In this document: positions 4,734 to 10,930 of the stretch, in pieces
Position numbering within the stretch: position 1 is the first letter of the stretch
Layout: each line of letters starts with the position of its first letter
NCBI RefSeq assembly: GCF_005222225.1
Contig: NZ_CP036536.1
Span: 3,806,001 to 3,870,000 of the forward strand
Source of the DNA: Salinimonas lutimaris
GTDB taxonomy: Bacteria; Pseudomonadota; Gammaproteobacteria; Enterobacterales; Alteromonadaceae
DNA: 64,000 bases
Reading direction: 5' to 3'
Notes under the pieces: model-generated
Told to the model about the DNA's origin: nothing
Seen by the model: the letters and a program-made list of their open reading frames with translations, nothing else
Databases searched by the model: none
Translations under genes and position numbers: made by a program

Positions 4734-6017
4734 ATGCAAAAATCTGAAGAATTATTCGCCCGCGCCCAAAAAACGATTCCTGGTGGCGTCAACTCACCGG
4801 TGCGTGCATTTAAAGCCGTTGGCGGCACTCCGCGCTTTATCACCAAAGCCGATGGCCCGTATATGTGGGACGCTGACGGTAACCGCTACATCGACTATGT
4901 ATTGTCATGGGGTCCGATGGTACTGGGCCATAACAATAACAAGATTCGTGAAGCCGTGGTACAAGCGGCGGCAGAAGGCTTAAGCTTTGGTGCGCCGACC
5001 GAGGCCGAAATTCACATGGCAGAAAAAATCAGTGAACTGGTGCCGTCAATGGAAATGGTGCGCATGGTGAACTCAGGCACAGAAGCCACCATGTCTGCCA
5101 TTCGGATTGCCCGTGGCTACACCAACCGCAATAAAATTGTGAAATTTGAAGGCTGCTACCATGGCCATGCTGACTCACTGCTGGTCAAAGCAGGCTCTGG
5201 CGCCCTGACCATGGGCGTACCCAGCTCACCGGGCGTACCGGCTGAAGTGGCCCAGCACACCATCACTGTGGAATTTAATAACCTGGACAGCGTCAAAGAA
5301 GTGTTTGCCCGGGAAGGTGATGACATTGCCTGTATTATCGTTGAACCGGTCGCCGGTAACATGAACTGCATTCCTCCGGTAGATGGCTTTTTGCAAGGCC
5401 TGCGCGAGATTTGTGATGCCCACGGCAGCATTTTAATTTTTGATGAAGTCATGACCGGCTTCCGGGTTTCTAAAGGCGGGGCCCAGGAGCGCTATCAGGT
5501 TACCCCTGACATGACCTGTTTAGGTAAAGTGATTGGTGGCGGCATGCCGGTCGGCGCATTTGGCGGTAAGCGTGAGATTATTACGTATGTCTCTCCTACC
5601 GGTCCGGTTTATCAGGCCGGTACTTTGTCGGGTAATCCGGTGGCCATGGCAGCCGGTCTGGCGGCACTGAACCAGATAGCGGATGACGATATTTATCCGC
5701 AAATTTTTGCCAATACACAAAAGCTGGCAGATGGCATGCAGGCACTGGCAGACAAACACGGTATTCCACTGACGACCAATGTGGCCGGCAGCATGTTTGG
5801 GTTGTTTTTCACTGACGTGGATAAGGTCACCAACTACCAGCAAGCCACCAGTTGTAATACCGAACAGTTTAAAACATTTTATCATGGTATGCTGGAACAG
5901 GGCGTGTACCTTGCCCCGGCCTCATATGAAGCTGGCTTTGTGTCTTATGCGCATGATGACAGTATTATTGAAGCCACACTGGCAGCCGCCGATAAGGTGT
6001 TTGCTACACTGAAGTAA
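4734..6017 (+). CDS. hemL: Glutamate-1-semialdehyde 2,1-aminomutase
   Basis: PLP enzyme that converts glutamate-1-semialdehyde to 5-aminolevulinate in the C5 heme pathway. It has 427 residues, the usual length. The PLP lysine is K265 (codon 5526-5528, in [13 protein letters not shown]), the same number as in the E. coli enzyme; FDEVMTGFR supplies the cofactor Asp, and [13 protein letters not shown] is typical. I chose the ATG at 4734 (MQKSEELF), which matches the family start; the longer frame from 4668 lies inside pyrB. One base separates it from the pyrB stop. Confidence 0.96.
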
Positions 6018-6041: not shown

Positions 6042-7163
6042 GTGACAGAACTGGTATTGGTATTACTCTTTTTCGCCGTCAGCGTTAGTGTATACGGTGC
6101 TGTTGTCACCCTGCTTTATCTGCGTAGTCAGCGCCTGGTCAGTCAGACCAGAGCTGAACGCTTCAGTCACCATCAGGGGGTACTGGCCGATAACGATGAG
6201 GCCAAGGCCCGTATTTTCGCCCGGCGCGCCGATGAAGCGCTGGTCCTGACCAAAACCCTGCAAAAGTTTATTCCCCGCCAGTTTGTTGATCATTTTGCCA
6301 AGCACGGCACAGTGGAGTTGACCCTGGGACATGCTGATGAAGATGAAGTGGCCATTTTGTTCTGTGATATCCGCGGTTTTACCGGATTGTCAGAACGGAT
6401 GGGACCACAGCAGCTGATGACCTTTCTCAATTCCTATTTTTTACGGATGAACGAACCGATTCACCAGAACCGGGGGTTTATCGACAAGTTTATTGGCGAT
6501 GCCATCATGGCTTTGTTTGATCATCCCGGCGGTAGCGCCAAGGCCAAAGCCATTGATGCGGTGAGCGCCGCACTGGATTTACGTAAAGCCCTGACCCTTT
6601 ATAATCAGCATCGTCAAAATAGTCATTATGACCCGATTGGAGTAGGTATCGGCATTCATTTCGGCCCGGTCATTCTGGGCACGGTCGGCTCTGAAGACAG
6701 AATGGACACCACGGTGATTGGCGATAGCGTGAATATTGCTGCCCGGCTGGAAAGCCTGACCCCGCTGTATAATGCCGACATCATTGTCAGTGCCACGGTA
6801 CTGGAAACTATCGGAGCGGAATTTGGCCTGAAAACCCGCTTACTGGATTGGGTCAGAGTAAAAGGCCGGCGCGCGCCCATTGAGATTTATGAGGTGTTGA
6901 GCCATTTAAGTGAGCCTGAGCAACAACAAAAGTTTGCCCTGCAAACTCAGATTGCAGCCGGGCTGGCCTGCCGGATAAAGCAAGACTGGGATGGTGCCCT
7001 GGTGCATTTTTATAAAGCCCGGGAAATGTCGCCGGACGACTCTCTGGCCCTGCATCATATTCGCACAATTGAAGCGATTCGGTATCAGCCATTTCCGCCC
7101 AACTGGGATGGCGCCATCGCCACTGATGGCTCGCAATTTAACTGGCAGCCTGCTGACGAATAA
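6042..7163 (+). CDS. Membrane-anchored class III adenylate/guanylate cyclase
   Basis: A 373-residue protein with one N-terminal membrane segment (residues 3-27), a short linker and a class III cyclase domain (about 95-290), followed by a roughly 80-residue C-terminal tail. Metal-binding aspartates are D109 (FCDIRGF) and D153 (KFIGDAIM). K149 fits the adenine-selecting lysine, T224 the second base-selecting position, and N231/R235 the transition-state pair, so the domain should be active and most likely makes cAMP. Thr instead of Asp at the second position places it with the class IIIb type. GTG start at 6042 after GAGCAGGA. It follows hemL by 24 bp, and its 3' end overlaps the convergent peroxidase gene by 26 bp. 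Confidence 0.9.
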   Translation: MTELVLVLLFFAVSVSVYGAVVTLLYLRSQRLVSQTRAERFSHHQGVLADNDEAKARIFARRADEALVLTKTLQKFIPRQFVDHFAKHGTVELTLGHADEDEVAILFCDIRGFTGLSERMGPQQLMTFLNSYFLRMNEPIHQNRGFIDKFIGDAIMALFDHPGGSAKAKAIDAVSAALDLRKALTLYNQHRQNSHYDPIGVGIGIHFGPVILGTVGSEDRMDTTVIGDSVNIAARLESLTPLYNADIIVSATVLETIGAEFGLKTRLLDWVRVKGRRAPIEIYEVLSHLSEPEQQQKFALQTQIAAGLACRIKQDWDGALVHFYKAREMSPDDSLALHHIRTIEAIRYQPFPPNWDGAIATDGSQFNWQPADE

Positions 7164-8058
7164 ACGTCAGGGCCGGGGCAAAGTAAGCGCCGCCGGTTTC
7201 CGCGCTGGTAAAATCCAGCCAGCGGTCGTAATCCCCTTCGGCATTTCCCACAATCTGGCTGTGCAGCATGGCTTTAAAAGGCTGAGCACTGGCCGCACAG
7301 CTGATAAAAAACAGGCCTTGAATCAGCAAGTCACCATAAGGCATTCCCTGCTTCAGTAAATCATGATGGCCATCGTCACTGCCCGGGGCACAGGCCCGCA
7401 CACTGTGCGAAGAGTCTGATTGCTCCGGGCTGGGCTGATTGTATTCCCGGGTCACCCCCATGACCTGTTCCTGCTGACGCTCAGACAACGACTTCCAGCG
7501 TCGTAAATCATGGCGAAAACGCTGAACATGTATATAACTGCCCCCAGCAAAATCAGCGTCCTGCCGGGCGTCAATAATCGCCACCTGTCGACGCTTCATC
7601 CCCCGCGGGTTATCCTGAGCGTAAATAAAGCCGTTTAAGTCCCGGCCATCCAGATACCGGAACGCCTTGATTTGTTCTACCAGTTCCACATGCAGATGCA
7701 GCAGCTCCATGACTTCGCTGCCAATGGCATGACAAATATCCAGCCGGTCGGCCCGAATCTGGATAAATAAATCGGTGCCGGTATCCGGTGCACTGCGATC
7801 TTCACACTGCATGCGGGGGAAGGCGGTCAACTCGGTGGGAATCAGACCCTCGTAAAGTTCAGACCAGTAGCCGGCCCCAACAGCAATGACGCCGGTGACC
7901 ATCGCCTCATAATGCTCATTCTCATACCAGTCAAAAATATCCAGCACCCGGGCGAGCTTGGCGCGCACAGCCTGACTGTCATCATCAATCACATTAAGCA
8001 GCAGATACTGCGCATGCAGATTCGATTCTGCACATATTCCTTTTTGCGGTTGTGTCAT
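7138..8058 (-). CDS. DyP-type peroxidase family protein with altered distal heme pocket
   Basis: A 306-residue protein colinear with YfeX-like DyP heme peroxidases: GGSYIHVQR, SHSVR, MPYG, FFISCA and GGAYFAP blocks are all present. The proximal heme ligand is probably H218 (SSHSVRA). The GxxDG motif that carries the catalytic distal Asp reads GFIYA, with Tyr146 in place of Asp. The distal Arg position, in the block LLKQGMPYG where YfeX has VRQSLPYG, is Lys236. Normal peroxidase chemistry is therefore uncertain; heme binding is likely. No signal peptide. It follows the gamma-glutamyltransferase gene by 60 bp on the same strand and may share its transcript. The start has TAAGGAA about 12 bp upstream. 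Confidence 0.88.
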   Translation of the reverse strand: MTQPQKGICAESNLHAQYLLLNVIDDDSQAVRAKLARVLDIFDWYENEHYEAMVTGVIAVGAGYWSELYEGLIPTELTAFPRMQCEDRSAPDTGTDLFIQIRADRLDICHAIGSEVMELLHLHVELVEQIKAFRYLDGRDLNGFIYAQDNPRGMKRRQVAIIDARQDADFAGGSYIHVQRFRHDLRRWKSLSERQQEQVMGVTREYNQPSPEQSDSSHSVRACAPGSDDGHHDLLKQGMPYGDLLIQGLFFISCAASAQPFKAMLHSQIVGNAEGDYDRWLDFTSAETGGAYFAPALTFIRQQAAS

Positions 8059-8118: not shown

Positions 8119-9801
8119 CTAATACCCTGCGGCTTGTCCATCTTTTCGGCTTTCAGATGCTCCCATATATACCCCACGCTCAGCATCATGCATGATTGCC
8201 TGGTAGCCCCCATACACTCCCAGTTTCGGAGCCAGGGTATGACCCATCTCAAGAAGCTCACGGCGGGTTTGCGCCGAAAATCCGTTTTCCAGATGCACCT
8301 GACCTACGCCGCTCATCCGCTCACCGGTCGGACTTGATGAACCGCTGTGCAGGATGCGCGGGGCATCACCGGCCTCCTGCAGGTTCATACCAAAATCAAT
8401 CAGATTGACCAGAATCTGTGCATGCATTTGTGGCTGAGTGGCCCCGCCCATCACGCCAAAGCTCAGCCAGGGCTTGCCATTGAGGGTAACAAACGCCGGA
8501 ATAATCGTATGAAACGGGCGTTTTCCGGGAGCGTACTCGTTAAAATGGCCAGCCTGCATGGTAAACAGCTCGCCCCGGTTTTGCAGCACAAAGCCCAGTT
8601 CAGGCGGCGTCATGCCTGAGCCCATCCCGCGATAATTACTTTGAATCAGCGAAACCATGTTACCAGCGCTGTCAGCGACGGTCAGGTAGACGGTGTCACC
8701 TTCATACCGACCGGCATCAAGCCGGCTGGCCGGCGCGTCAGGCACAATGAGCGACATGCGCTGACGGGCGTATTTTTTTGAAATCAGCCAGTCTACCGGG
8801 ATCTGATTAAAATCCGGGTCAGCGTAGTACTTGGCGCGATCCTCAAAGGCCAGCTTTTTAGCTTCCACAAAAGTATGGATGTAACGGGCAGAGTCGAATC
8901 CCATACCTTCTATGTCATAGTTTTCCAGGATATTAAGAATTTGCAGCGCGGCAATGCCCTGACCATTGGGCGGCAGTTCCCAGACATCATATCCGCGATA
9001 GTTGGTGGACACCGGCTCAACCCACTGTGAGGTGTGCTGCGCTAAATCTGCATAGGTTAAATAGCCGCCCTGCTCTTTCATGTAGGCAGCAATACGACGG
9101 GCGATATCGCCTTTATAAAACGCCTCAGCCCCGCCGGTTGCTATCTTTTCATAGGTATTGGCCAGATGCGGATTTTTGAAAATATCGCCTTTCTGAGGCA
9201 CCTTGCCACCAGGCATAAAGGTGTCGGCAAAGCCATCATACTGGCCAATGCGCTGGGCGTTTTTCTGCCAGTAATAGGCAATGAGTTCACTGACCGGAAA
9301 GCCTTGTTTGGCATAGCGGATAGCGGGTGTAAGAATATCCTGTACTGGCAGCACACCAAATTTTTTGTGTAGTTCAAACCAGCCATCTACGGCGCCTGGC
9401 ACAGAGACGGGTAGCGGACCAAAAGAGGGTATACGGGTCAGCCCCTGCTCAGCAAACACCGACTTTTTCAGCGACTGCGGCGAGCGGCCTGATGCATTAA
9501 GTCCATACAGCCGTTTGGTTTTGGCATCCCACACAATGGCAAACAGGTCTCCGCCAATACCGCTGCCGGTAGGCTCGACCAGTCCCAGCATCGCATTGGC
9601 AGCAATGGCCGCATCGACCGCACTGCCGCCCTGCTTCAATATATCCAGTGCCACCTGAGTGGCCAGGGGCTGACTGGTGGCAGCCATTCCCTGGGTGGCT
9701 ATTACCTCTGAGCGACTTGCAAAGGGTGCCCCGGTGATCCGATCATAAGCCTGAGCGCCGATAGCCCATAGTAGTGCCAGACAGCACATCCATCTTTTCA
9801 T
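8119..9801 (-). CDS. ggt: Gamma-glutamyltransferase (periplasmic)
   Basis: A 560-residue Ntn-hydrolase that would cleave gamma-glutamyl bonds such as those in glutathione. It has a signal peptide (residues 1-18, MKRWMCCLALLWAIGAQA), the GSGIGGDLFAIVWD block and the autoprocessing site, where Thr370 (GDTVYLTVADSAGN) aligns with the E. coli nucleophile Thr391. The following YRGMGSGMTPPELGFVLQNRG region is typical of the small subunit. The ATG at 9801 is preceded by AGGAAG at good spacing; the open frame continues upstream to 10347 but that part is not protein-like. The DyP-like gene lies just downstream. Confidence 0.9.
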   Translation of the reverse strand: MKRWMCCLALLWAIGAQAYDRITGAPFASRSEVIATQGMAATSQPLATQVALDILKQGGSAVDAAIAANAMLGLVEPTGSGIGGDLFAIVWDAKTKRLYGLNASGRSPQSLKKSVFAEQGLTRIPSFGPLPVSVPGAVDGWFELHKKFGVLPVQDILTPAIRYAKQGFPVSELIAYYWQKNAQRIGQYDGFADTFMPGGKVPQKGDIFKNPHLANTYEKIATGGAEAFYKGDIARRIAAYMKEQGGYLTYADLAQHTSQWVEPVSTNYRGYDVWELPPNGQGIAALQILNILENYDIEGMGFDSARYIHTFVEAKKLAFEDRAKYYADPDFNQIPVDWLISKKYARQRMSLIVPDAPASRLDAGRYEGDTVYLTVADSAGNMVSLIQSNYRGMGSGMTPPELGFVLQNRGELFTMQAGHFNEYAPGKRPFHTIIPAFVTLNGKPWLSFGVMGGATQPQMHAQILVNLIDFGMNLQEAGDAPRILHSGSSSPTGERMSGVGQVHLENGFSAQTRRELLEMGHTLAPKLGVYGGYQAIMHDAERGVYMGASESRKDGQAAGY

Positions 9802-9973
9802 TTTTTTCTTCCTGTGCGGGGTCATTAATATCCTGACATTGTCAGTATACGTCATTGCCTGCCCGGATAAACCCGCATTACCCGGTTGCCAGTTGAACGC
9901 GCAGCCTTGCACAACTAAAGTGCATCTGACGTGTGTTATTTTTGTTAACAGCAGGATGAGGGTACATTTTTTC

Positions 9974-9989
9974 TGGCACGATTTACGCA
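9974..9989 (+). promoter_or_regulatory. Sigma-54 (-24/-12) promoter element upstream of glycosyltransferase gene
   Basis: TGGCACGATTTACGCA matches the RpoN consensus TGGCACGNNNNTTGCW at all of the first seven positions and has GG-N10-GC spacing; positions 12-13 differ. Expected start of transcription is near 10000, giving a leader of about 94 bases before the ATG at 10094. Confidence 0.7.
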
Positions 9990-10093
9990 ACCTCCTCAAC
10001 CGTACTGAATCTGGTACGTAAAAATAGTGACCGCGGTAAACATGGTCCATGCTGGCTGACGCAGTACAAGGCCAGCAGGAATGGGAGATAGCT

Positions 10094-10930
10094 ATGGATC
10101 CACAATTTAGTATTGTTACCATTGTAAAAGAACGCAGCAGGCAGCTGGCCAGTCTGGTACAAAGTCTGGAAAAAACCCGTCTTCGGCCACAGGAACTGAT
10201 TGTTGTCTGGATGACATCCCCCTGCGATGAATCATTGATCAGCAGTGAGGCTTTTTCCGTCCAGCATCGTTTTTTAGCTAATGAATCTGTGCCTGTCCCC
10301 CGGGCCAGAAATAAAGGCATGGCCGCCTGCTCCACCGAACAAATCATTTATCTTGATGTCGACTGTTTGTGCCCGCCGGATTTATTTGAATCCGTGCTGA
10401 CGGAGTTACACGATGGTCAGGTTGTGAGTACACAGGTACGCTTTTTACCCTCCCCGGCACAGACGCAGGATTATGCCACTGCCAGGCAGCATGCTGTGAG
10501 CGCACCGGACGCGGTTGAACTGTTACACAATCAACCCGTCGCCTGGTCTTATTTTCATACCTTGCTATTTGCCATCACCAAAGCGGATTTTATCCGCACC
10601 GGTGGGTTTGATGAGTCATATCATGGTGTGGGGGTAGGTGATATTGATTTTGCTGCCCGCTGTGATGAGCTTGGTTTTGCCCTGGTTATGCTCAAAAACG
10701 ATGTGCTTCACCAGTTTTATCCCGGTGTTGAGCCGCCTGTGCAGCAGCTTTTTGATATTGTGAATAATGCAACCCGCTACAAACAGAAGTGGGGAGAGTA
10801 TCCGCTTCAGGGCTGGTTACAACAGTTTGCCCAAAGCGGCCTGATTAATGACGATTATGAAACCGAAGGATTGCGGGTAAAACGCCTGCCGACTGACGAA
10901 GAAATACAGGCGCAAATGGCACCTGAGTAA
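10094..10930 (+). CDS. Family 2 glycosyltransferase, galactosyltransferase-like C-terminus
   Basis: A 278-residue cytoplasmic GT-A enzyme. The N-terminal SIVTIVKERSRQLASLV strand-helix, YLDVDCLCPPDLF (DVD metal motif) and the C-terminal block GGFDESYHGVGVGDIDFAARC are typical of GT2 enzymes with a Glyco_transf_7C end. It would move a sugar from a nucleotide sugar to a surface glycan; donor and acceptor cannot be told. I chose the ATG at 10094 because GGGAGA lies 7 bp upstream; an earlier ATG at 10049 has no such site. It stands alone, with a sigma-54 element 105-120 bp upstream and a terminator directly after, so it is a single-gene unit. Confidence 0.85.
   Translation: MDPQFSIVTIVKERSRQLASLVQSLEKTRLRPQELIVVWMTSPCDESLISSEAFSVQHRFLANESVPVPRARNKGMAACSTEQIIYLDVDCLCPPDLFESVLTELHDGQVVSTQVRFLPSPAQTQDYATARQHAVSAPDAVELLHNQPVAWSYFHTLLFAITKADFIRTGGFDESYHGVGVGDIDFAARCDELGFALVMLKNDVLHQFYPGVEPPVQQLFDIVNNATRYKQKWGEYPLQGWLQQFAQSGLINDDYETEGLRVKRLPTDEEIQAQMAPE

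Follow-up and report, generated by a model that had tools for sequence, protein, structure and literature searches.

A DyP-family protein of Salinimonas lutimaris without either distal catalytic residue, and repeated loss of both residues across its family

What does a DyP-family protein do when it has been retained by selection, but both distal residues of its heme pocket have been replaced? The question is raised by a gene at 7138..8058, on the minus strand, of the 64,000-nucleotide stretch of the Salinimonas lutimaris genome analysed here (contig NZ_CP036536.1, positions 3,806,001 to 3,870,000; hereafter, the window). The DyP active site is described as almost exclusively His, Asp and Arg, with a few Glu variants (PMC7611857), and the distal Asp and Arg as absolutely conserved in most DyPs (PMC8197335). 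Among the open-licence papers listed in our searches, no title or abstract opening describes a natural DyP that lacks both. What bacterial DyPs do in the cell is itself regarded as open, with several probable but unproven roles (PMC8197335). We find that the window gene is under strong purifying selection, and that both distal residues have been lost repeatedly and independently within its GTDB family, beyond this one gene.

The gene (P0001) runs from ATG to TAA and encodes 306 amino acids. Its product passes the curated cut-offs of the DyP-type peroxidase family profiles (PF20628, 4.5e-29; PF04261, 4.3e-13; TIGR01413, the DyP superfamily profile, 148.1 bits against a cut-off of 100.5), but not that of the EfeB equivalog TIGR01412 (23.2 bits against 428), and at E 0.001 it has no Pfam or NCBIfam match to the coproheme decarboxylase or chlorite dismutase families. 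The AlphaFold2 model, with a predicted local distance difference test score (pLDDT) of 83.1 and a predicted template modelling score of 0.86, has the DyP alpha+beta fold; an alignment of 32 close relatives gave a pLDDT of 44, and one with more close relatives and a YfeX-like sequence gave the 83.1. All 50 of the Foldseek matches listed for this model are DyPs, the best fold match being 2iiz/2hag. With VIA-align, the model superposes on 2hag with a Z of 38.2 and a root-mean-square deviation of 1.9 over 301 residues, at 37% identity, and none of the 50 VIA-align matches listed is a coproheme decarboxylase (ChdC) or chlorite dismutase structure, although this listing does not exclude such a match. 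The source genome, a single contig of 4.12 Mb whose close relatives are Alteromonas and Salinimonas species, is matched in one place by the Dyp_perox_N profile and likewise in one by Dyp_perox_C; the window gene is the sole DyP found in it.

A reading of the letters alone, made earlier, held that both distal catalytic residues were replaced while the proximal His and the fold were kept, and the alignments bear this out. The nearest solved structure by sequence (E 2e-71) is TyrA, the SO_0740 protein of Shewanella (2hag/2iiz). Its alignment with the window protein has no gaps near either site (GFIYAQDNP opposite GFVDGTENP, and LLKQGMPYG opposite ILRQSMPYG), and a 34-row alignment places the two replaced residues in identical columns. 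Tyr146 (codon TAC, 7621..7623), within GFIYA at residues 143-147, stands at the distal aspartate of GxxDG, and Lys236 (codon AAG, 7351..7353), within LLKQG at 234-238, at the distal arginine. On the proximal side, His218 (7405..7407), in SSHSV at 216-220, occupies the position of the heme ligand, and Asp278 (7225..7227) that of its Asp partner; all four codons are on the minus strand. Neither alignment offers a candidate column for another Asp or Arg that could fill the distal pocket. Asp149 was considered as a new distal acid and rejected, because canonical rows have the Glu of GTEN in that column. Since the profiles and the fold fit but neither distal residue is present, the sequence is best named a DyP-family protein rather than a DyP peroxidase. 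The distal loop around residue 146 (141-150) is among the least certain parts of the model, with a block mean pLDDT of 58.

Within the genus, the replaced residues are fixed. A protein search found the gene in 58 of 59 genus genomes, and Tyr146, Lys236 and Gly238 occur in all 43 distinct Alteromonas/Salinimonas proteins, a count that leaves out one sequence with undetermined residues (L074) and three Alteromonas-named proteins belonging to the neighbouring genus codes g20 and g12. These three have Tyr/Leu (L070 and L072) and Ile/Asn (L073) at positions 146 and 236. In 18 close pairs with synonymous divergence (dS) between 0.1 and 1.5, the ratio of non-synonymous to synonymous divergence (dN/dS) ranges from 0.010 to 0.042, with a median of 0.021, in agreement with the earlier suggestion that selection keeps the protein; pairs of canonical rows are too distant for comparison. 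A chance change or a sequencing error is excluded because both residues are present in all 43 proteins, and a pseudogene by this count together with the dN/dS values and the matches without internal stops.

The replacement is one of many in the GTDB family. A match is present in 294 of 295 sampled family genomes, the lone miss being an assembly that is 71% complete, and there are no internal stops among the matches listed in the genus and family searches. For each family genus, the two sites were read in one or more members, and outgroups were read as well. In other families of the order, Asp and Arg are present in 20 of 20 rows (f6, f8, f10, f12, f16, f18, f21, f25 and f27). Inside the family, the pairs at 146/236 include Y/K, Y/L, I/N, I/D, L/D, V/K, V/N, T/D, T/F, A/L, M/Q, Y/R, E/R, N/R, D/K, D/T and others. 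Several genera hold more than one state, with D/R, E/R, Q/R, Y/R, D/Q and D/T all found in g5. Counting as both-lost any row with neither D nor E at 146 and without R at 236, the 126 rows divide into 54 with D/R, 49 both-lost and 23 mixed. Removed before counting were sequences with undetermined residues (L074, L154), fragments (L077, L078, L104), the window itself (L001, L002), a second, different DyP of genome G302 (L105), and rows more than 88% identical to a kept row. On a family tree of 133 rows, built with the trait columns removed and including seven distant outgroup rows that are not part of the 126, the fewest changes are 14 for Asp and 11 for Arg. When only branches with a Shimodaira-Hasegawa-like approximate likelihood ratio test value of at least 95 are used, and polytomies are resolved in the cheapest way, there are still at least 12 changes between D and non-D and at least eight between R and non-R. 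Tyr at 146 arose at least four times.

Two groups of sequences deserve separate mention. The excluded second DyP of G302 (genus g19) has a canonical-looking GFVDG and is about 26% identical to the window protein; the first DyP of that genome has Tyr/Glu. Three g11 sequences (L100, L102, L103) are very divergent orthologues or paralogues on long branches, with 24-35% identity; they keep the His, and their distal and 'MPYG' motifs are altered.

The columns that changed along with the two distal residues include the rest of the published distal pocket. In KpDyP, Asp268 is hydrogen-bonded to His215, and the distal pocket comprises Asp143, Arg232, Ser234, Leu246 and Phe248 (PMC6153280); DdDyPA has the corresponding set, with its proximal Asp281 contacting the His (PMC8230527). 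By alignment and spacing, guided by a YfeX-like row (L183, 32% identical) in place of the KpDyP sequence itself, the pocket maps to window residues 146, 236, 238, 249 and 251, and the proximal pair to 218 and 278. None of the 126 rows differs at His218, Asp278, Arg139 or Arg105. Furthermore, of the 48 columns with a conservation of 98% or more among the 54 D/R rows, 43 remain conserved in the 49 both-lost rows, and only 144, 146, 202, 236 and 249 fall below 85%. With a 90% cut-off, and leaving out the two defining sites, 14 of 82 columns are relaxed: 238, 249 and 251, together with 142, 144, 159, 202, 204, 229, 233, 253, 268, 284 and 288. All three remaining KpDyP pocket positions are thus among the relaxed columns (hypergeometric P 0.004, a guide only, in that the test assumes independent columns while the rows are related). 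Column 202 (7453-7455 in the window), where the window protein has Val, has Arg in 53 of 54 D/R rows and a residue other than Arg in 34 of the 49 both-lost rows. The loss is concentrated in the published distal pocket, and the proximal pair is untouched.

We consider it probable that the window protein is a DyP-fold heme binder without fast peroxide activation, which handles or senses heme or heme iron. Heme binding without classical peroxidase activity was one of the suggestions of the sequence-only reading. Because the His218-Asp278 pair is invariant, His218, backed by Asp278, would very probably still hold heme, whereas hydrogen peroxide would no longer be activated quickly, as the distal base (Asp) and the distal Arg are gone. 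The effect of such a loss has been described for KpDyP, whose distal Arg forms a salt bridge to heme propionate 7: when both residues are changed to Ala, the heme is kept, a water sits on the iron, and the rate of Compound I formation falls by more than three orders of magnitude (PMC6153280). In the window protein, Lys236 likely takes over part of the salt bridge of Arg to the propionate. The loop lining the distal side carries Tyr146, which would likely cap the iron. The natural protein should then behave like the double-alanine variant or be blocked further by Tyr146. If heme is retained and peroxide turnover is slowed, the function under selection would probably be related to heme or heme iron, with a likely cytoplasmic role in handling or sensing rather than in oxidation driven by hydrogen peroxide.

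Comparison with known systems places the protein among DyPs while setting it apart from each of them. TyrA of Shewanella oneidensis (2hag, and 2iiz with heme), a B/P-class DyP, shares the N-terminal motif and the proximal pair, but has GFVDG and the distal Arg where the window protein has Tyr and Lys; its activity on Reactive Blue 5 has been tabulated (PMC8197335). KpDyP D143A/R232A (6fiy) is altered at the same two positions and shares the fold of the window model (Z 36.9), but it is an engineered double alanine, whereas the window protein is natural, carries Tyr/Lys and is fixed in its genus. ChdC (HemQ) belongs to the same structural superfamily as DyPs, and the actinobacterial enzymes carry His where DyPs have the aspartate (PMC7611857). 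The Tyr of ChdC, however, is at a position other than that of Tyr146, and there is no acid behind its His, unlike the His218-Asp278 pair. EfeB and YfeX, which have been linked to iron from heme, have the DyP fold in common with the window protein, some relatives of which have iron-uptake neighbours; unlike the window protein, the YfeX-like row L183 retains Asp and Arg. Deferrochelatase activity is a matter of dispute (PMC8197335).

A nearly universal, strongly selected DyP of one family, in which both distal residues have often been dropped and the proximal pair never, draws a line between binding heme and being a peroxidase. With canonical orthologues matched to non-canonical ones, it becomes possible to test what the DyP family is for.

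A protein that still works as a peroxidase or oxidase, with Lys236 as the cation and Tyr146 or Asp149 taking the proton or giving a radical, in a slower or different substrate chemistry, seems to us rather unlikely, although several observations speak for it. The fixation of Y146, K236 and G238 throughout the genus argues for a selected state, the invariant proximal His-Asp pair favours ferryl chemistry, and KpDyP without both residues still makes Compound I, if slowly (PMC6153280). The survey of orthologues, which found the Tyr/Lys pair in every distinct genus protein and many other pairs across the family, counts against such chemistry: Ile/Asn, Ile/Asp, Leu/Asp, Thr/Phe, Ala/Leu and Val/Asn in sister lineages cannot all serve one mechanism, and Leu replaces Lys in L070 and L072, which are close relatives. 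The proposal in the sequence-only reading that the Tyr/Lys pair might support a new chemistry is weakened for the same reason, since sister lineages carry unrelated pairs at both sites (Ile/Asn, Leu/Asp, Thr/Phe, Ala/Leu, Val/Lys).

A non-heme or structural role, in which heme has been lost and the protein works through its fold or through partners such as the product of a gamma-glutamyltransferase gene, is unlikely. This reading draws on a distal pocket open to change and on the gene order. A gamma-glutamyltransferase gene (8119..10347, minus strand; PF01019, 1.7e-162) lies directly upstream of the DyP gene, with a gap of 60 bases, and such a gene is directly upstream in 37 of 48 both-lost rows, at a median gap of about 50 bases. 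However, this neighbour is not confined to both-lost rows, being present also in 10 of the 54 canonical and in 7 of the 23 mixed ones, and the invariance of His218 and Asp278 in every row is hard to explain without heme.

Equally improbable is a role as heme carrier or sensor in which the iron has an axial ligand on each side, His218 below and Tyr146 above. The hemophore HasA likewise holds heme by two axial ligands, a His and a Tyr. The aspartate oxygen of KpDyP is 5.0 angstroms from the iron (PMC6153280), so the longer Tyr side chain on that loop could reach it. Tyr arose at least four times at this site, yet one base substitution can turn an Asp codon into a Tyr codon, and no special cause is needed. 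That the peroxidase function has become dispensable, leaving the gene to drift towards loss, as the many independent and varied replacements at the distal sites might suggest, is very improbable, since the low dN/dS contradicts drift, nearly every family genome keeps the gene, no internal stops occur among the matches listed, and 43 of the 48 canonical-invariant columns are still conserved.

For the preferred reading, a heme binder concerned with heme or heme iron, the neighbours of canonical relatives are relevant. The DyP gene is directly preceded, on the same strand, by an ATP-binding cassette (ABC) transporter ATPase gene in three of four f6 (Shewanella-like), four of four f16 and three of three f25 tree rows, and likewise in the family genera g19, g21, g23 and g29; in eleven loci its permease gene comes before the ATPase gene. 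In row L172, the upstream transporter has a substrate-binding protein whose match to FbpA, the ferric-iron binding protein of solved structure 1q35, reaches 1e-120, and no NCBIfam profile names the upstream transporter proteins over its cut-offs. The fourth f6 row (L171) has a gamma-glutamyltransferase gene instead of the transporter, and other canonical genera have amtB-glnK upstream. Genera g19 (Y/E, Y/D) and g21 (A/I) have lost the distal pair and kept the transporter neighbour. In a search of 80 genomes for FbpA-like proteins, a close form (at least 55% identity) was found in 31, and D/R was present in 27 of 31 genomes with it versus 16 of 48 without it, one further genome (G067) having no row. 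It is only for the ancestor that these neighbours speak in favour of an iron setting.

Several points weigh against the heme-binder reading, besides the relatedness of the rows behind the P value above. The association of close FbpA with D/R tracks the tree, with just five independent pairs on well-supported branches, too few to establish it, and is no independent evidence. The FbpA query has no match in the source genome, where the neighbour of the DyP gene is the gamma-glutamyltransferase gene and not an iron or heme gene; the iron link is therefore ancestral at best. Several rows, from g11 and g50, sit on long branches and are perhaps not orthologues. Folding, rather than heme, could be the reason why His and Asp are conserved. 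Finally, the window protein may retain slow peroxidase activity, since Compound I formation is slowed but not abolished in the KpDyP double variant.

The remaining neighbours in the window are as follows. On the plus strand, a gene with an adenylate/guanylate cyclase domain (6042..7163; PF00211, 6.3e-24) lies tail-to-tail with the DyP gene, with a 26-base overlap, and before it stands an aminotransferase gene (4734..6017, plus strand) that we take, from its sequence, to be hemL-like. Such a hemL-like gene is near the DyP gene and converges with it in 34 of 48 both-lost rows. The upstream gamma-glutamyltransferase frame, one of four such genes in the source genome, is 742 amino acids long, but its Pfam domain begins at residue 235, and the true start probably lies far inside this frame. 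A shorter gamma-glutamyltransferase is also supported by a frame for a family 2 glycosyltransferase (10049-10930, plus), which runs across its 5′ part on the other strand. Between 6900 and 10500, the window contains ten terminator-like sites, compared with 3.7 expected from shuffles.
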